Assembly: GCA_013360915.1 (NCBI GenBank)
Contig: JABWAT010000001.1
Location: 255,259-319,258, forward strand
DNA length: 64,000 nt
Origin: Bacteroidota bacterium
GTDB taxonomy: Bacteria; Bacteroidota; JABWAT01
Reading direction: 5' to 3'
Under the pieces are notes generated by a model. That model saw nothing but the letters and a program-made list of their open reading frames with translations, made no database searches and was not told the origin of the DNA. A program made the position numbers and the translations under genes. Positions 28,799-38,011 of this stretch are shown piece by piece. Each line of letters starts with the position of its first letter. Position 1 is the stretch's first letter.

Positions 28799-30270
28799 CT
28801 TCTTCAAATCATACACTTTCCCGCGATTTATTCAGCACGTACCAGAGCGACCGGTTTTTCGACGAAATGTTTGGACCGGGCCTGCAGCCGCGCTCTCATT
28901 ACCGTGAGTTATGGGATAAACTGAATCAGATGTCGGCAGATGATCTGCTGACCCGGCAGCAGAATGCCGATCTGTACTTTCTGAATCAGGGTATCACTTT
29001 TACGGTTTACGGAGACTCGCAAGGTACCGAGAAGATCATTCCCTACGACCTGCTTCCCCGCATTATACAGCAATCGGAATGGATGCGTCTCGAGGCTGGA
29101 TTGGTTCAGAGGATACGGGCATTGAACCTGTTTCTGAAAGATATCTACCTTCATGAAACCATCCTCAAAGACAAACTGATCCCACGTGAACTGATCTATT
29201 CCTGCAAACATTACCGGCGGGAAATGAAGGGGATCCGTGTGCCCAAAGATGTGTATGTGGCCATAACCGGGACCGATCTGATCAGGGACTCAGACGGTCA
29301 GTACTATTGTCTGGAAGACAATCTGCGGGTTCCCAGCGGGGTTTCCTACATGCTCACCTGCCGGTCGGTCATGCGCCAGGTGTTTCCTTCCCTTTTCCGG
29401 GATTATGGTGTGCGTCCGGTGGACAATTACGGGGATCTGCTGCTGACGACCCTGAAGGAACTGGCCCCACCCGCCTGCCAGCATGAACCAACCGTCGTTC
29501 TGCTGTCACCCGGTGTGTTTAACTCGGCCTTTTTCGAGCACACGTTCCTTGCCCGGCTGATGGGAATTCCATTGGTGGAGGGCCAGGACCTGGTGGTTCA
29601 TAACAATGTCGTTTACATGCGCACCACGGGCGGACTGGAGCGGGTGGATGTTATTTATCGCCGGATTGATGATGATTTCATGGATCCGATTACGTTTCGT
29701 CCCGATTCCATTCTGGGGGTCCCGGGATTGTTCAATGCCTACCGGGCCGGAAACGTGACCCTTGCCAATGCCATTGGAACCGGTGTGGCTGATGACAAAG
29801 CCGTCTATGCCTTTGTCCCCGACATGATACGGTATTACCTGAGTGAAGAACCGATTATCGGAAACGTTCAGACCTTTCTGCCCTACCGTCCCGATGATTA
29901 CCGGTATGTCATGGATCATATCGGCGAGCTGGTGGTAAAAGCGGTCGGAGAGAGTGGCGGGTATGGCATGCTGATCGGACCGCACAGTACGCGCGAACAA
30001 CAGGAGCAATTTAAAAAACTGATTGCCGCCAATCCCCGGAATTACATCGCACAGCCAACATTGGCACTTTCCACCTCTCCCTGCTTTGTGGATAAAGCCA
30101 TTGAACCGAGGCATATTGATCTGCGTCCGTATGTTCTTTATTCGGGAACAGCGCGGCTGGTGCCGGGCGGTTTGACCCGAGTGGCACTTAAAAAAGGTTC
30201 TTTGGTGGTTAATTCATCACAAGGTGGCGGAAGCAAGGACACCTGGGTGTTGGGCGAGGAGGTGGTCTGA
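28783..30270 (+). CDS. circularly permuted ATP-grasp protein (DUF404/DUF407 type)
   Basis: 495 aa. The family's N-terminal pattern FFDEMFGPGLQPRSHY is at about 25-40, followed by LNQGITFTVYGD, the ATP-grasp element EDNLRVPSGVSYML near 178, and VVKAVGESGGYGMLIGP near 385 with DLRPYVLYSG at 447, all typical of the circularly permuted ATP-grasp enzymes. These are predicted carboxylate-amine ligases that form peptide or amide bonds. It is the first gene of the conserved triad with an alpha-E protein (start overlaps its stop) and a transglutaminase-like protein. In other genomes the triad also accompanies the Anbu proteasome-like peptidase, which is absent here. The substrate is unknown. The start lies in a hairpin loop and lacks a Shine-Dalgarno site. 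Confidence 0.93.
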   Translation: MQKITTSSNHTLSRDLFSTYQSDRFFDEMFGPGLQPRSHYRELWDKLNQMSADDLLTRQQNADLYFLNQGITFTVYGDSQGTEKIIPYDLLPRIIQQSEWMRLEAGLVQRIRALNLFLKDIYLHETILKDKLIPRELIYSCKHYRREMKGIRVPKDVYVAITGTDLIRDSDGQYYCLEDNLRVPSGVSYMLTCRSVMRQVFPSLFRDYGVRPVDNYGDLLLTTLKELAPPACQHEPTVVLLSPGVFNSAFFEHTFLARLMGIPLVEGQDLVVHNNVVYMRTTGGLERVDVIYRRIDDDFMDPITFRPDSILGVPGLFNAYRAGNVTLANAIGTGVADDKAVYAFVPDMIRYYLSEEPIIGNVQTFLPYRPDDYRYVMDHIGELVVKAVGESGGYGMLIGPHSTREQQEQFKKLIAANPRNYIAQPTLALSTSPCFVDKAIEPRHIDLRPYVLYSGTARLVPGGLTRVALKKGSLVVNSSQGGGSKDTWVLGEEVV

Positions 30271-31244
30271 TGCTGTCACGTGCTGCTGATTGCCTGTTCT
30301 GGATGAGCCGTTACCTGGAACGCGCCGATCATACCGCCCGGATGACCGATGTGAATCTGAACCTGATGACAGAAGGAGATCAGGAAGGCCGGGAACGACT
30401 CATCCGTCTGATTCATGCTCTGCACATGCCGGCACCTGAAGCAGAGGCAGATGACCTTCGTCCATACTATCACCGGATTGCGGCCGATGCCAGACACCCC
30501 AATTCGGTCCTTTCCTGCATTACCTCAGCACGGGAGAACGCCCGGCAGGTCAGAGAAATGCTCAGTACCGAACTCTGGGAAACCCTGAACCGGTTTTATC
30601 TCGACCTTCGGGCTGATTGTGCCCGCCAGACGCCGGTGTTTGCAGAATCCTCCTTTTATAAAAAGATCAGAGAGCGATCATTTCAGATCAGAGGCATTGC
30701 CGACGACACGCTCAGCCATTCCGAGCCCTGGCAATTTATCAGGCTTGGGCGCTACCTGGAGCGGATGGAGGCGACCTCGGAACTGCTGCGGACGTATTTT
30801 AAAGTTTACCGTCTGCAACCCTCACAGGATCACAGCCGGCAATACCTCGAAAAGGTGGAAATTCTGAAATACTGCTCAGCCTTTGAGCCGTATTCCAAAG
30901 TCTATACCGCCGATTTCCGGTTTACCTGGATGGCCGAATTTTTGCTGCTGAATCATGATTTCCCATACTCACTCACCTTCAGTACACGGCAGGTCGATTA
31001 TGCCATCACCGATCTGATTTCGCTGTCGGGACGGCAGGATACGGGTGACCTGCGGAAAGTTACCGGAAAAATCAGATCATTCCTGGAATTTTCAACCGGA
31101 GAGGATATTCTGAAAGATGGGATTGATGCTTTTCTGAAACGCATCGAGGATGCCAGTGTGGATATCAACAAGGCCGTCTATCAGACGTTTATCACTTACC
31201 CCATCGAAAAGACACCCGACTATCTGGAGACACGAACGGCATGA
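30270..31244 (+). CDS. alpha-E domain protein (DUF403)
   Basis: 324 aa, all-helical, beginning MLSRAADCLFWMSRYLERADHTAR, here cited only for the conserved LSRxAxxLFWMxRYxERA pattern of alpha-E proteins, with the second family element ENARQVREMLSTELWE near 90 and FIRLGRYLERMEATSELL near 153. Alpha-E domains always travel with the permuted ATP-grasp protein and are thought to form part of the ligase complex. The ATG shares its first base with the previous TGA stop (TGATG) and the gene overlaps the next one by four bases, so all three are translationally coupled. Confidence 0.94.
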   Translation: MLSRAADCLFWMSRYLERADHTARMTDVNLNLMTEGDQEGRERLIRLIHALHMPAPEAEADDLRPYYHRIAADARHPNSVLSCITSARENARQVREMLSTELWETLNRFYLDLRADCARQTPVFAESSFYKKIRERSFQIRGIADDTLSHSEPWQFIRLGRYLERMEATSELLRTYFKVYRLQPSQDHSRQYLEKVEILKYCSAFEPYSKVYTADFRFTWMAEFLLLNHDFPYSLTFSTRQVDYAITDLISLSGRQDTGDLRKVTGKIRSFLEFSTGEDILKDGIDAFLKRIEDASVDINKAVYQTFITYPIEKTPDYLETRTA

Positions 31245-32194
31245 TTTACACAATCCGGCATTCGACCCGTTTTGCTTATTCAGAACCCGTCAGAGAAAAT
31301 GTCACGGAAGTGAGGCTGAATCCCGTTTCATTGGGAATTCAGCGGTGCTTTTCCTTTCGTTTATCGGTCTGGCCACCCGTGCCGGTTTCTTCCTATTCCG
31401 ATCAGTATCAGAACCGGATTCATCATTTCAACATTCCCTACGATCACCGGGCGCAGGTCATAACTGCCGAATCAATCGTAGGAATCAGACAGTCCCAGAA
31501 ACCACTCGATCAGCAGGTCCTTGATCTGAGCTGGGCTGATCTGGATGCACAGGTATCCGATTCCGAATTGCTCGAATGGGTGATCCCCTCCGATTTTACC
31601 GAACCCACACCCTTGCTGGAACAACTGAAAACCGAACTGGCCATCAGCCGGGAGATGAAACCCTTTGAACTGGCCATGGAAACCAGTTACCGATTGTTCA
31701 AAGCCCTGAAATACCTGCCGAATTCGACCCGTTTCGACTCCCCCATCGATGAAGCCATTTCTCAGAGGGCCGGGGTCTGCCAGGATTATTCTCACATCAT
31801 GCTGGCCCTGCTGCGCAGTGTCGGATTTCCCTGCCGCTATGTGAGCGGCTATTTGTACCATGCCATCACCAGCAATCATCAGTCGCCCGATACTGCCAGT
31901 CATGCCTGGGTGGAAGCCTGGTTTCCGGGTCTGGGCTGGCTTGGACTGGATCCGACCAACAACAAACTGGCCGGAGATCATCACATTGTCATTGCCTACG
32001 GGCGTGATTATGCCGATGTACCACCCACCCGTGGGGTGTTTAAGGGATCTGCACGAACAGAAATGGCCATTTCCGTAAGGATTGTTCCGGAAGAGACCAT
32101 CATTGAATCGGATGTATTCCGGGTGATTCACGACGACAAGGATGTGGATGCGAAGCCAGCCACACCCACCTATGCCGGCAGTCAGCAGCAGTGA
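31241..32194 (+). CDS. transglutaminase-like cysteine peptidase family protein with BTLCP-type N-terminal domain
   Basis: 317 aa. The N-terminal ~80 residues match the bacterial transglutaminase-like N-terminal domain (MIYTIRHSTRFAYSEPVREN and the VRLNP element). The core domain shows a complete catalytic triad: C180 in GVCQDYSH, H221 in SHAWVEAW and D237 in LGLDPTNN. Proteins of this type with an ATP-grasp and alpha-E partner are predicted peptidases or amidases that process the amide product of the ligase. Cytoplasmic, no signal peptide. Start overlaps the alpha-E stop (ATGA). The following 208 bp up to the next gene contain no hairpin terminator that I can see. Confidence 0.93.
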   Translation: MIYTIRHSTRFAYSEPVRENVTEVRLNPVSLGIQRCFSFRLSVWPPVPVSSYSDQYQNRIHHFNIPYDHRAQVITAESIVGIRQSQKPLDQQVLDLSWADLDAQVSDSELLEWVIPSDFTEPTPLLEQLKTELAISREMKPFELAMETSYRLFKALKYLPNSTRFDSPIDEAISQRAGVCQDYSHIMLALLRSVGFPCRYVSGYLYHAITSNHQSPDTASHAWVEAWFPGLGWLGLDPTNNKLAGDHHIVIAYGRDYADVPPTRGVFKGSARTEMAISVRIVPEETIIESDVFRVIHDDKDVDAKPATPTYAGSQQQ

Positions 32195-32402
32195 GGAGAT
32201 TTTTTTAGCGATTCAGCCATTTCCCGGAATCTGATCCCTTTCGTATCCACAATCTTAGACTGATCATGTTGATTTTGCCTGTCAGACTCTCGCCAGGTGA
32301 TTTATCCCATGTTAGAAAATGATTAACAACACGCATTCGATTGGAACCGCTTTGCCTTTATAAGGGTTTCCTAATATTTTGTGGTATCTACGGGAGATTT
32401 CT

Positions 32403-34976
32403 ATGCGGCTGATCCTCACACTCACCACCCTCCTTTCAATCACCCCACTTTTTGGACAACCCTTTGGGAGTCCGGTAAATCAAAAGGTGGGAATCATCCA
32501 GAATGGACGCATTTTTACTGTCTTTTCCAATACTGGAGTGATTGGGCAACCGAGTTCTTCAGGTCCACGATTTGCCTGGTTGCATCAGAATAACGGCTAT
32601 TACGGAGACCTTTCCTTTGTAACGAGTATGAAGGTCAAAATGAATGCCGCGACCGACTTTACCAGCCCGGCTATCCAGACTCTTCTGACGAAACATCCCG
32701 ATTCATCCTATTTTTCCAGTATAATTAATGATGCAACCCGACCAGCAAAGGGTCAGGAACAATCACCCGAAGGGTTGACATGGTCCTACCAGCCTCGTGC
32801 AGGTTTTGACAATCATCACGGGTCGTCTGTAGCAATTTCTGATCAACCCGATACATGGCCATATTGGAAAGGATATACAACCTCGCCATTTCAGTACTTT
32901 CCATACTACTTCATAGAATTGAAGGATGATTTTGTTGAAACCTTTTTTGTAATGGATGATCATTCGGATGATGAATTTAACCGGACACCGTTTAATCATG
33001 TTCCAGTTGCAACGGTTCCTGAGAGAAAAGGACTTGGAATCCGTGCAGAAGTCAGGTACCTGCTTCCCGATCCCCAAAAGTTCGGACCGGTTTCGGATGT
33101 GTTTTTCATGGTTCATAAGTTCGTGAATGAATCAGACCATGATTATTCAGAATTCATGCTGTCTTTCATCGTGGGTAACTATGTGGGGGCAACAGGCCAT
33201 GATGATTCACCCCTGGAATATGATGATGATGTGAGTAAGTACGATTCGGTCACGAAAACCTTGTATTCCTGGGATTTCCCGGGCGATAACTCAAGAAATC
33301 CGAACTGGATCGGAAAACCTGGCTTTACAGGTATCCGTCAGATCAGTCCTTCACGGTATAAATATGGCAGTTACTTCGCTCCGGCAAACGATATTGATCT
33401 GAGGGATGACGAAGCACTTCGGACTCAACTGATGAAAATTGATCTGGGCGATATTTTCAACTCACGTGGCGAAGATGGAGATGGATTGGTTTCATCGGAT
33501 CTGTTTACTTTAAAATCGGGTGACTCGCTTGAATTTGTGACCATGGTTGGGTTTGGCGAATCCTTAACGATCCTTGATCAGGTTCTGGATTTGGGTGCTG
33601 ATTTTTGGAAAGCAAAATTTGAACCGACCGATCTGGCTTATTTCCTGGTTGACCAGAAAAATCTGAACCTGAAAAACACACAGGATCAAACCATCCCCCT
33701 CATCACCAAGAATATTGGCACCGAAGAAACCTGTTCGGTCACATTGATCGATCTGAAAACCCGGCAGGAAATCAGTCTTGGCACTTACCCATTAAATGAA
33801 ACCGGTTTGACCATCGATCTTTCTTCTTTCCGCGGAGACGAGTACCAATTCAAAATTGACCCGACCAATGACGAATTGATTCCATTCTCATTTATTGCAA
33901 CCATTGAACCAACCGGAACCATCCTTTCACAGGAATGGGATCAAAACCCGTTAACCACTTTTGAGTTCGAGACCAATCCATTCTCATTATCCCCCACCGA
34001 TTCCTTTGATATCACCTTTGAGCGGGTTCTCAAGTATAACTTTTTCGGTCCTGATTATTCACAGGTGACCTTTATAAACCTTGTTACCGGCGATTCTGTA
34101 ATTACACCGGGTTTTTCAGATCAATCTAATGAGCGGAATATATATTTTTCAATTCAGGATGGCCTGTCTGCAAAAATCAACAATGCCATGAAGGAGGATT
34201 TATTCGATTCAGAGTCCAGCCATTTTGAACCAGACAGTGTCCGATTTCAATCCTTTTCTCCCCATGTCAAGATCGCGGGAAATATGTATCTCAGAGTGAT
34301 GAAATTATTTGATTTCAAAGTTCAACCAGGCGTTGATACATCAAAAGCTGTAAAATTATTAGGTACAACTATAACATCGAAGATTACACCATTTACAATT
34401 CGGGATGAAAACGATAAACGAATACCTTTTATTTTCATAAACCGTACTGGAACAAGCGATAATCTTGGTGCAGGAGATCAACTGTTCTTACTGTTTAATG
34501 AAGGATTTACTGAGACGTATCAGGACACCATTAAAGGTCCTGATAATTCAACGTACAGGTTTGCAAATAGAATTTTTGTTACAAGTTGGGCAAAAATTCC
34601 AGCAAACCAAGATGTGGAATCAGCCGAAGTAACCTATCATCGTGCCTTCAAGGGAAAGAAAACCATACGAATTAAGGGATCTACCCTTCTGTCTGCAAGG
34701 AATGAGCAGCCCTCTCAGCTCCAGATCGGAAATCCCTACCCGAATCCGTTTAATCCTTCGGTTGCAATCCGGATCAACTCGGCGACCCGTCAGGTCGCAA
34801 AGATTCTGATTTACAATGCACTTGGACAGGTTGTTGAAAGCTGGGATGAAGCAATTCCTGCAGGTGAAACCACCTTAAAATGGTCCCCAAAATCAGGTCT
34901 TTCGAGCGGGTTGTATTTTATTTCGGTTTCTGCCAGCATTGGTCATCAGGTCAGAAAGGCTGTTTTCCTGAAATAA
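32403..34976 (+). CDS. large secreted protein with T9SS C-terminal sorting domain
   Basis: 857 aa from the ATG at 32403, which follows GGGAGA and begins a signal peptide (MRLILTLTTLLSITPLFGQ); the frame start at 32379 is rejected. The body is beta-rich with no recognised enzymatic domain; its opening (VNQKVGIIQNGRIFTVFSNTGVIG) resembles the opening of the secreted 704-aa protein at 17472, suggesting paralogous N-terminal parts. The last ~85 residues are a T9SS sorting domain: IGNPYPNPFNPSVAIRI, AKILIYNALGQVV, SSGLYFISVSA. The stretch about 34.1-34.7 kb is clearly richer in A+T than the neighbouring genes, which may mark a more recently acquired or fast-evolving part. Confidence 0.83.
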   Translation: MRLILTLTTLLSITPLFGQPFGSPVNQKVGIIQNGRIFTVFSNTGVIGQPSSSGPRFAWLHQNNGYYGDLSFVTSMKVKMNAATDFTSPAIQTLLTKHPDSSYFSSIINDATRPAKGQEQSPEGLTWSYQPRAGFDNHHGSSVAISDQPDTWPYWKGYTTSPFQYFPYYFIELKDDFVETFFVMDDHSDDEFNRTPFNHVPVATVPERKGLGIRAEVRYLLPDPQKFGPVSDVFFMVHKFVNESDHDYSEFMLSFIVGNYVGATGHDDSPLEYDDDVSKYDSVTKTLYSWDFPGDNSRNPNWIGKPGFTGIRQISPSRYKYGSYFAPANDIDLRDDEALRTQLMKIDLGDIFNSRGEDGDGLVSSDLFTLKSGDSLEFVTMVGFGESLTILDQVLDLGADFWKAKFEPTDLAYFLVDQKNLNLKNTQDQTIPLITKNIGTEETCSVTLIDLKTRQEISLGTYPLNETGLTIDLSSFRGDEYQFKIDPTNDELIPFSFIATIEPTGTILSQEWDQNPLTTFEFETNPFSLSPTDSFDITFERVLKYNFFGPDYSQVTFINLVTGDSVITPGFSDQSNERNIYFSIQDGLSAKINNAMKEDLFDSESSHFEPDSVRFQSFSPHVKIAGNMYLRVMKLFDFKVQPGVDTSKAVKLLGTTITSKITPFTIRDENDKRIPFIFINRTGTSDNLGAGDQLFLLFNEGFTETYQDTIKGPDNSTYRFANRIFVTSWAKIPANQDVESAEVTYHRAFKGKKTIRIKGSTLLSARNEQPSQLQIGNPYPNPFNPSVAIRINSATRQVAKILIYNALGQVVESWDEAIPAGETTLKWSPKSGLSSGLYFISVSASIGHQVRKAVFLK

Positions 34977-35142: not shown

Positions 35143-36666
35143 TTAATAAGGCAGGTAATCGTTCATGTTTTTCACACCGAGACGGTTTGCCAGATTGGCC
35201 AGGTCGGTGGAAACGCTGTTGTCGGTGCGGATTTCATCGAAACCGATGGAATATTCCTGACCGGAAAGCACAGCAGGCATCCGGCGGTTTTCACCCTGAA
35301 TCACCATTTGCATTAGTTTACGGGCCATCCGTTGGGCGAGGGTAATATCCATGTTATTCGGCTGTGCGCCGCGGATATCGCGTGAGAAGCCTTCAGCAAT
35401 CACTCTTGACCGGGCATTCAGACCAGCTTCCTGCAATTCTTCCATGAAATACTGGGCCGCATTTCCCTTGTATCCCTTTTGCTTCCGCTCGTTCTGTTTA
35501 TAGCCTTCAGCAACCACAATGACAGTATTTTCACGGTTTTTCAGGGATTCGGCCACTTCCTTCATGTCAAAACGCGAGGAAGGAAGCACGGCCAGGTGAG
35601 CACCGGCACCGAGACAACTGTGGAGAGCGTGATATCCGCCGGCAGCACCCATCATTTCAATGATGTAGCAGCGATGGTGGGTCCGGGCATCGGCCATGTA
35701 GCATCTGATCTTTTCAGCACCCACTTCCACACCGGTGTGTTCTCCGATACATTCGGTTCCGAACACATCGCTGTCGATGGTAACCGGGATGAAGTACATG
35801 AGAATGTTATCGGGCAACAGTTTTGACAGGGCTTTCATCCCTTTCAGTGTGCCGTCTCCGCCAATACCAATGAGAATCTTCACCTTCCGGCGAAGGATAT
35901 TTTTTGCAGCCTGTTCCTGAACCTCGGGCAATCTGAAATCACCATACCGCTCTGACCGGAAATCGGCTCCGCGGGCCTCCCGAAGCGGCGGGGCGAACAT
36001 CACGCCAGGAATTCGTTGTAACTGACGGTACAAACGGGGAGAATAAACCAATGCACGGAAATCCTCGGTACGACCACTGACCACAGACCGGAATCCCTCG
36101 GCTGCAACGAAAATTTTCCTTCCCATGGCTTCCAGAAACTGACTGATAAAGGCCGTGACCGAGTTGTAACCCGGGGCGCACCCGCCGTCCTGAATAATGA
36201 GCACATCCATTTCCCGGTAAAAATCTTCCTCTTCACGGGCAAGCGACGTACCAAAACGGGCCAATTCACGGTAAAAGTGGCCGTAAGCCAGCGGATTTCC
36301 CTGCTCAAGTGTTTCGATATCCTGACGGGAAAATGAAAACAGTTCCACATTCGTCAACGCACGGACGGTTCCATTCCGGGCCTGATCATCCACCAGAGAC
36401 AACTCTCCGAAAAGAGAGCCCTTCGAATAAATTTTGATCGTCCTGTCAAATTTTTCCCAGGCCAGTTCACCAGCGGCCACCAGGTAGGCTTCCCCCCCGG
36501 CATCACCTTCCTTGTACACCGTTTCACCGGCTTTGAATTTGGTTTTTTTGAGAAATCCGGCAATTACCCGGATGTCATCATCATTTAGCTGACTGAAATT
36601 TTCGACGGACTTCAGAAAACTGATCACCTCGGGGGAGTGGGGATCGAAAGCCATAGGCACCGACAT
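35143..36666 (-). CDS. cyclic nucleotide-binding domain fused to 6-phosphofructokinase
   Basis: 507 aa. Residues ~20-145 are a cNMP-binding domain with the phosphate-binding cassette intact in its key residues: FGELSLVDDQARNGTV with E88 and R97. Residues ~153-507 are a phosphofructokinase domain: nucleotide loop GGCAPGYN (161-168, Cys where the usual family has Asp), GGDGTLKG (269-276; Gly after GGD, the ATP-type residue), catalytic TIDSD (296-300, with D298 and D300), MGAAGGYHAL (339-348) and EG near 388/425. It would phosphorylate fructose 6-phosphate and be gated by cAMP, c-di-AMP or another nucleotide; phosphate donor and ligand are inferred. Start chosen at the ATG at 36666 (AAGGA 6 nt before it); the frame extends to 36792 but that part overlaps the divergent promoter region. 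Divergent MFS gene upstream. Confidence 0.88.
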   Translation of the reverse strand: MSVPMAFDPHSPEVISFLKSVENFSQLNDDDIRVIAGFLKKTKFKAGETVYKEGDAGGEAYLVAAGELAWEKFDRTIKIYSKGSLFGELSLVDDQARNGTVRALTNVELFSFSRQDIETLEQGNPLAYGHFYRELARFGTSLAREEEDFYREMDVLIIQDGGCAPGYNSVTAFISQFLEAMGRKIFVAAEGFRSVVSGRTEDFRALVYSPRLYRQLQRIPGVMFAPPLREARGADFRSERYGDFRLPEVQEQAAKNILRRKVKILIGIGGDGTLKGMKALSKLLPDNILMYFIPVTIDSDVFGTECIGEHTGVEVGAEKIRCYMADARTHHRCYIIEMMGAAGGYHALHSCLGAGAHLAVLPSSRFDMKEVAESLKNRENTVIVVAEGYKQNERKQKGYKGNAAQYFMEELQEAGLNARSRVIAEGFSRDIRGAQPNNMDITLAQRMARKLMQMVIQGENRRMPAVLSGQEYSIGFDEIRTDNSVSTDLANLANRLGVKNMNDYLPY

Positions 36667-36688
36667 AATCATTCCTTTTTGTATAAAG

Positions 36689-38011
36689 TTGGCCAAAAAT
36701 ACGAAATTTGACAGTAAATATGGACTTTTTCGGGTTAAACTGTTGTTAGGGATAGGTCTAACAGTTAAAAAAACCACACACTTCCAATCCAAATCGGGAT
36801 CCCACTTGTCCTCTGCTCACAATTTAACACCCGGTCGTGAACGCGCAACGATTCTTCTGCTTGCTGCTATTCAGTTTACTCATATCCTCGATTTTGTCCT
36901 GATGATGCCGCTGGGTCCCCGGCTTATGGATTATTTTACCATCGGGACCAGTGAATTTTCTCTGTTGGTTTCTTCTTACACCTTCAGCGCAGGACTGTTC
37001 GGTCTGCTCATCGGGTTCTTTCTGGATCGATTTGAACGGAAACGGGTCCTGCTTCTGCTTTATACCGGCTTTACCATCGGAACACTGGCCTGTGGACTTT
37101 CACCGAATTATGAAACGTTGCTGCTGGCCCGGATTCTCACCGGAATCTTCGGAGGGGTACTGACAGCCGTTACCTTTTCAATCATTGGGGATATTATTCC
37201 CTACGAACGCCGGGGAGCCGCCACCGGTGCACTGATGGCAGCCTTTTCGGTTGCTTCCGTGATCGGGGTTCCCTCTGGATTGTATTTTGCCACTTTGTGG
37301 GACTGGCACGCACCGTTTTTTATTCTTGCTGGTACAAGCGGCATTGTTCTGGTCTTTGTCTGGATCTATCTGATCCGTATTCAACCTCAAACGGGGCCGC
37401 ATCGACCGAGGCTAATGGAAACTGTCCGGACGGTTCTGACAGATAAAAACCATCAGCAAGCCTATCTGCTCATGGCCGTCATGATGCTGGCCGGATTTAC
37501 AGTGATTCCGTTTATTGCTCCCTATCTGGTCTTCAATACCGGCATGACCAACGCAGAACTTCCCTGGGTCTATTTCACTGGCGGAGCAGTAACGTTTTTC
37601 TCAAGCCAGTGGGTGGGCCGGTTAAGTGACCGGATGGGCAAACCCAAAGTCTTTACTGTATTCGCCCTGATTTCGGTGGTGCCGATCGTGGCCATCACCG
37701 TGTTGCCACCCGTTCACCTGCTTGTGATTCTGACCGTGACAATCATTTTCTTTATCACAGTAAATGGCCGGATCGTACCAGCCATGGCCATGATCACCGG
37801 AAGTGCCAATCCGGCACAACGCGGCAGTTTCATGGCGATCAATTCCTGTATTCAGCATCTGACCAGCGGATTGGGAGCCTTTTTAAGCGGACTGATCGTG
37901 ACCACTCTGCCCGACGGAAAACTGGCAAATTACGGTTGGGTGGGATTGTTCGCCGCCGTGATGACGTTTATCGCCGTCTACATCGGCAATAAAATGACCG
38001 TGCGCGGGTAG
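36689..38011 (+). CDS. major facilitator superfamily transporter (drug/sugar efflux-like)
   Basis: Up to 440 aa with twelve predicted membrane segments beginning near residue 52 (ATILLLAAIQFTHILDFVLMM). MFS landmarks: loop 2-3 motif GFFLDRFERKRVLLL near 112, motif after helix 4 with ARILTGIFGGVL, and a second-half equivalent GRLSDRMGKPKVF near 311. The sequence is of the AraJ/Bcr-like proton-driven efflux type, substrate unknown. The start is uncertain: the first ATG (36689) puts a TTGACA-type promoter element and an inverted repeat inside the coding region, and the first ~45 residues are not hydrophobic; a TTG near 36806 is an alternative. It diverges from the cNMP-PFK gene with only a short shared control region. 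Confidence 0.85.
   Translation: MAKNTKFDSKYGLFRVKLLLGIGLTVKKTTHFQSKSGSHLSSAHNLTPGRERATILLLAAIQFTHILDFVLMMPLGPRLMDYFTIGTSEFSLLVSSYTFSAGLFGLLIGFFLDRFERKRVLLLLYTGFTIGTLACGLSPNYETLLLARILTGIFGGVLTAVTFSIIGDIIPYERRGAATGALMAAFSVASVIGVPSGLYFATLWDWHAPFFILAGTSGIVLVFVWIYLIRIQPQTGPHRPRLMETVRTVLTDKNHQQAYLLMAVMMLAGFTVIPFIAPYLVFNTGMTNAELPWVYFTGGAVTFFSSQWVGRLSDRMGKPKVFTVFALISVVPIVAITVLPPVHLLVILTVTIIFFITVNGRIVPAMAMITGSANPAQRGSFMAINSCIQHLTSGLGAFLSGLIVTTLPDGKLANYGWVGLFAAVMTFIAVYIGNKMTVRG
36738..36766. promoter_or_regulatory. imperfect inverted repeat in the divergent PFK/MFS control region
   Basis: AACTG(TTG)TTAG / CTAACAGTT arms with an 8-base centre; one arm carries a three-base bulge. A TTGACA element lies just upstream (36708-36713). 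It falls inside the longest possible MFS reading frame, which suggests that frame starts too early. Candidate operator only. Confidence 0.35.

Follow-up and report, generated by a model that had tools for sequence, protein, structure and literature searches.

Within the window—the whole stretch of DNA analysed, 64,000 nucleotides—a single open reading frame on the minus strand encodes a protein of 507 aa in which an N-terminal cyclic-nucleotide-binding (CNB) domain is joined to a phosphofructokinase (PFK). The preliminary description had drawn this architecture and the coordinates of the gene from the letters alone. The coordinates are correct; the strand, which it left unstated, is minus. Both domains score well over their curated Pfam cut-offs. 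PF00027 matches residues 42–120 with 58.5 bits (cut-off 27.5, E 6.8e-16), and its cut-off is also passed in the seven orthologues tested; PF00365 matches residues 155–454 with 167.7 bits (cut-off 30.9, E 4.5e-49), over profile positions 2–276 of 277. When compared by sequence with the PDB, the first half of the protein matches the CNB domains of PKA and PKG, and the second half matches PfkA-type enzymes. The gene and its features are these:

35143..36666, minus: CNB–PFK fusion CDS, 507 aa, from ATG (36666–36664) to stop (35145–35143); open reading frame, domain profiles, and orthologues that align from residue 1
36673..36679, minus: AAAAGGA, resembling a ribosome-binding site, 6 nt ahead of the ATG at 36666; sequence
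36307..36543, minus: CNB domain, residues 42–120; PF00027 and sequence match to PKA/PKG CNB structures
36367..36411, minus: phosphate-binding cassette FGELSLVDDQARNGT, residues 86–100; sequence and alignment of 16 orthologues
36403–36405 and 36376–36378, minus: cassette residues E88 and R97, respectively; sequence and alignment of 16 orthologues
36205..36306, minus: linker, residues 121–154, at the C-helix position of the CNB domain and presumably helical
35305..36204, minus: PFK domain, residues 155–454; Pfam PF00365
36169..36186, minus: GGCAPG, N-terminal PFK loop, residues 161–166; alignment of fused proteins
35848..35862, minus: GGDGT, residues 269–273, ATP-type nucleotide motif; alignment and the GGDG/GGDD rule (PMC8836295)
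35767..35784, minus: VTIDSD, residues 295–300, the equivalents of T125, D127 and D129, with the changes G124V and N128S; alignment
36689..38011, plus: MFS transporter, divergent neighbour, kept in all four genomes of the window's own family; its true start is probably downstream of 36689

The linker ends EEEDFYREMD and passes directly into the first PFK strand. This junction, EEExxYxExD just ahead of the PFK fold, is on average 51% conserved between lineages, versus 32% for the CNB barrel. Elsewhere in the window, two adjacent genes at 30270–32194 look by eye like an alpha-E family/transglutaminase-like pair, and the protein encoded at 32379–34976 is large, looks secreted, and has an end (NPYPNPFNP...) reminiscent of a secretion-system C-terminal sorting domain.

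The cyclic-nucleotide-binding domain

A search for this architecture across genomes, as the preliminary description had proposed, recovers full or near-full fused orthologues in 16 genomes that belong to four families of one phylum. The cyclic-nucleotide pocket claimed for the window protein is there: E88 and R97 are both present, nine residues apart as they are in PKA. Ten of the 16 orthologues keep both residues, namely the four of the window's own family, G133, the f26 members G137–G140, and G316; the most divergent member of all, L047, is among those that keep the pair. In G135, G141, G142 and G143 the glutamate has become Arg or Lys, in G136 the arginine has become His, and in G007 both have changed. 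At least three changes are required on the tree to account for these states. Since one or both residues are replaced in six of 16 orthologues, cyclic-nucleotide binding is not a conserved property of the family, and cyclic-nucleotide control, judged by the pocket, is not common to the whole of it.

The two halves of the protein have diverged to very different extents. Between families, identity to the window protein is 26–33% for the CNB part versus 61–72% for the PFK part, so both the ligand of the sensor and its output may differ from one family to another. Among close relatives, dN/dS is 0.02–0.12 for the CNB part, which indicates that the domain is being maintained rather than decaying, and 0.01–0.04 for the PFK part; both halves are under purifying selection.

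Carriers of the fusion have enzymes that might make the ligand. Class III cyclases (PF00211) occur in all 16 carrier genomes, and the window's own genome has six matches over the cut-off, by which the cell is predicted to make cyclic nucleotide itself. None occurs in five non-carrier genomes tested from family f8; G134, however, has 12 cyclase matches and no fusion, and the association of cyclases with the fusion is confounded by ancestry. In G138 (L081:8672-12705) the gene for a CHASE2 class III cyclase is divergent to the CNB–PFK gene, and PF00211 coordinates place a cyclase frame of equal length, equally far from the fusion, in its close relatives G139 and G140.

Might the CNB domain, then, have ceased to sense cyclic nucleotides across most of the family, or all of it, and have become a module for oligomerization or docking, or else a sensor for some other ligand, on a PFK that is active? 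The independent changes of pocket residues fit such a history, as does a domain much less conserved than its partner and yet under purifying selection, and there is a parallel in the trypanosomatid PGKL proteins, whose CNB domain is without binding residues (PMC4106842). We consider it unlikely, however: the pocket is canonical both in the window's own family and in the most divergent member, and every carrier has cyclases, which in one genus adjoin the fusion.

The phosphofructokinase domain

PFK residues are numbered here as in E. coli, without the Met. The equivalents of T125, D127, D129, R162, E222, R252 and R72 are kept, by alignment, in all 16 fused proteins, and so is G104. In PFKs the motif GGDG goes with ATP, in contrast to GGDD (PMC8836295), and ATP is indicated as the donor by this motif. 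The residues of the PPi type, D104 and K124, are represented in the window protein by G and V. Dependence on PPi was set aside as a first choice on account of the GGDG motif.

Other positions are less orthodox. G124V and N128S are found in all 16 fused proteins, and R171A in 13 of them. All nine f26 members carry D103N in addition, such that GGNGT replaces GGDGT while TIDSD is unchanged. The insert around R72 is longer in the fused PFKs, and a small insertion renders the alignment columns of R243 and H249 uncertain. The window protein thus has A, S and V at the usual, though not strictly required, R171, N128 and G/K124, which makes ordinary catalysis less assured but leaves membership of the superfamily unaffected. 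The preliminary description had called the TIDSD motif complete; the motif is present, but most PFKs have TIDND, and it is N128 that has become serine throughout. It had also suspected an unusual donor from the loop GGCAPG. That loop is real, and unchanged across the 16 aligned proteins. The suspicion was a fair one, but stronger reasons for it lie in G124V, N128S and R171A, while GGDG points to ATP.

Most of the canonical ADP/PEP effector residues are replaced. R21, R25, R154 and E187 align in the window protein with A, Q, M and H; across the fused proteins R21 is A or G, R25 is mostly Q or E, R154 is M, and E187 is H or D, while the alignment at K211 and K213 is uncertain. With its catalytic residues kept and its effector residues replaced, the fused PFK looks like an enzyme that lacks the usual ADP/PEP site, and the replacements fit a transfer of control to the CNB domain. 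Compared with bacterial PfkA, that of E. coli for example, it shares the PF00365 fold family by profile, GGDG, T125/D127/D129, R162, E222 and R252, but differs in having the arginines of the ADP/PEP site replaced and a CNB domain added at the N-terminus. Its identity to ordinary PFKs is about 30%, and besides G124V, N128S and R171A it differs from them in the GGDAPG loop, where D has become C. It falls far under the NCBIfam cut-offs for PFK equivalogs, scoring 117.8 against TIGR02482 (PFKA_ATP equivalog), for example, where the cut-off is 371.35. When placed on a tree together with the remaining PFKs of these genomes and E. coli PfkA, the 16 fused PFKs group as a single clade (SH-aLRT 100), whose stem is very long, at 4.4 changes per column. 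They are a distinct subfamily of PFK-A, and predicted enzymes.

Every carrier genome has a second PFK. It is of the PPi type (D104/K124) in the window's own genome, G002, G007 and G133, among those aligned, and of the G104 type in G136 and G316. In the window's own genome this second enzyme, L001, carries GGDDT and PKTMDND (PPi-dependent PFKs have GGDDT/PKTxDND); it belongs to the same superfamily as the fused PFK, which differs in having the ATP-type G104 and in lacking D104/K124. With a PPi-type PFK at hand, the fused PFK is not the sole route into glycolysis. Fructose-bisphosphatase (FBPase) is present in ten of 11 carriers tested, the window's own genome included, and was not found in G002. 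Genes for pyruvate, phosphate dikinase (PPDK) lie directly downstream of the fusion, on the same strand, in G141 and G143 (L083:5030-9703 and L086:8226-12670), and in G007 (L078:8052-12247) the next gene upstream, again on the same strand, encodes a GTP-type PEP carboxykinase (PEPCK). Neighbours differ between families, and hence there is no operon conserved across them.

It is conceivable that this domain is no 6-phosphofructokinase in vivo, that it acts on another sugar phosphate, or that, being almost inactive, it senses metabolites as a pseudoenzyme and signals by way of its partners. The long stem, the substitutions at 124, 128, 171 and 103, the lengthened insert around R72, and the presence of another PFK in each genome all lean that way. 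The invariance of T125, D127, D129, R162, E222, R72 and R252 leans the other way, as do the very low dN/dS of the PFK part and the PPDK and PEPCK neighbours, which fit glycolysis and gluconeogenesis, and we judge this alternative improbable. It and the loss of cyclic-nucleotide sensing are not mutually exclusive.

Distribution of the fusion

An even draw from the phylum finds the fusion in 16 of 395 genomes. All four genomes of the window's own class have it. In the class of G007 it occurs in 11 of 98 genomes (two of family f5 and nine of family f26), but in none of the 86 of family f8, and it is absent from G134 (family f25). In a third class G316 alone carries it, one of 146 genomes of the class and one of 129 of its order, and in another class it was found in none of 391 genomes, nor in any of 294 in a second draw, apparently of the same class. 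Searches at E≤1e-45 detected no unfused member of the PFK subfamily in the genomes covered. Named relatives within the window's own family are Bacteroidetes MAGs, and a GTDB-wide peptide scan with a single query sequence, blind to distant relatives, returned three members of the family only. A scan of viral contigs yielded no fusion, and tblastn against plasmids and phages gave nothing covering 80% of the query; the matches listed were to the PFK part only. One truncated case was encountered, in G142 (L046:1483-2793), whose 437-aa frame is missing the beginning of the CNB domain, through either a genuine truncation or a fault of assembly.

An artefact of frame or assembly is excluded for practical purposes, and with it the sequencing artefact that the preliminary description had named as one way in which the fusion could prove illusory: although most carriers, with several contigs each, look like drafts, identical frame, start and boundary recur across 16 independent genomes, one of them, G007, a single contig of 3,293,456 bases (3.29 Mb).

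A putative second-messenger-gated phosphofructokinase

We read the fusion in the window, tentatively, as a single-chain phosphofructokinase gated allosterically by a second messenger, with a cyclic nucleotide as the putative ligand; this is a credible reading, though well short of a secure one. Given the catalytic residues it retains, the C-terminal domain would be a 6-phosphofructokinase of the ATP type, in a divergent subfamily of PFK-A, and the N-terminal domain would bind cAMP or cGMP made by the class III cyclases of the cell. Binding would shift the helix that follows the cassette and leads into the first PFK strand, which carries the GGCAPG loop, and this relay might toggle enzyme activity between a low and a high state. 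Control by the CNB domain would thereby take the place of the ADP/PEP effector site, where the alignment reveals most residues to be gone. In the window's own genome, the result would be a regulated, irreversible, ATP-driven step alongside the reversible PPi-type PFK and FBPase. Where sister lineages have lost E or R, the domain probably responds to some other ligand or needs none.

Several observations argue for a gated enzyme: two domains far over their cut-offs, joined in 16 orthologues whose PFKs form one clade with no unfused member among the genomes searched; retention of catalytic residues and GGDG together with replacement of the effector site; an intact E88/R97 pair in ten of 16 orthologues; purifying selection on the CNB part; class III cyclases in every carrier, adjoining the fusion in G138, G139 and G140; and a setting of PPDK and PEPCK neighbours, a second PFK of the PPi type, and FBPase. 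Against it stand the loss of E, R or both in the remaining six orthologues; the doubt cast on normal PFK catalysis by G124V, N128S, R171A (in 13 of 16) and, in f26, D103N (all nine members); the far greater divergence of the CNB part between families; and the shared ancestry that confounds the cyclase link, with cyclases and no fusion in G134. An AlphaFold2 model built from four closely related sequences had a mean pLDDT of 42, a confidence too low for it to reveal whether the domains touch.

Comparable arrangements are known. In bacteria, the mycobacterial Pat acetyltransferase (MtKat/MsKat) also carries its CNB domain ahead of the catalytic domain within a single chain, and its activation by cAMP is proven (PMC5861322); its output domain is a GNAT, however, whereas here it is a putative glycolytic kinase. 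Trypanosomatid PGKL (PGK-CNB-HTH-like) likewise joins a glycolytic-enzyme domain to a CNB domain, but the enzyme is PGK, the organisms are eukaryotic, the CNB domain is C-terminal, and key residues are lost in both domains; according to the paper on PGKL, Pfam listed no fusions of CNB domains to glycolytic enzymes in 2014 (PMC4106842). Family 2B encapsulins, too, have a poorly conserved CNB domain with a putative ligand on an unrelated partner (PMC8346489), but that partner is a capsid protein and no enzyme is involved.

We found no published description of a CNB–PFK fusion among open-licence papers. Sensor and enzyme fold are both known; it is their combination that we did not find described. 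It is possible, if somewhat less likely than not, that the fusions amount to a PFK-A subfamily not described before, in which cAMP or cGMP, acting via the fused CNB domain, directly gates the committed step of glycolysis, the ADP/PEP site having been abandoned and the sensor re-tuned to other ligands in sister lineages. Several families conserve the fusion, expression and assay of the protein should be straightforward, and the natural variants of the pocket are ready-made controls for the ligand of the sensor. In well-studied bacteria, cAMP affects metabolism mainly via transcription. If our reading is right, a bacterial glycolytic kinase would be subject to direct allostery by a second messenger instead, and a receptor built into the PFK itself would make control of flux immediate.
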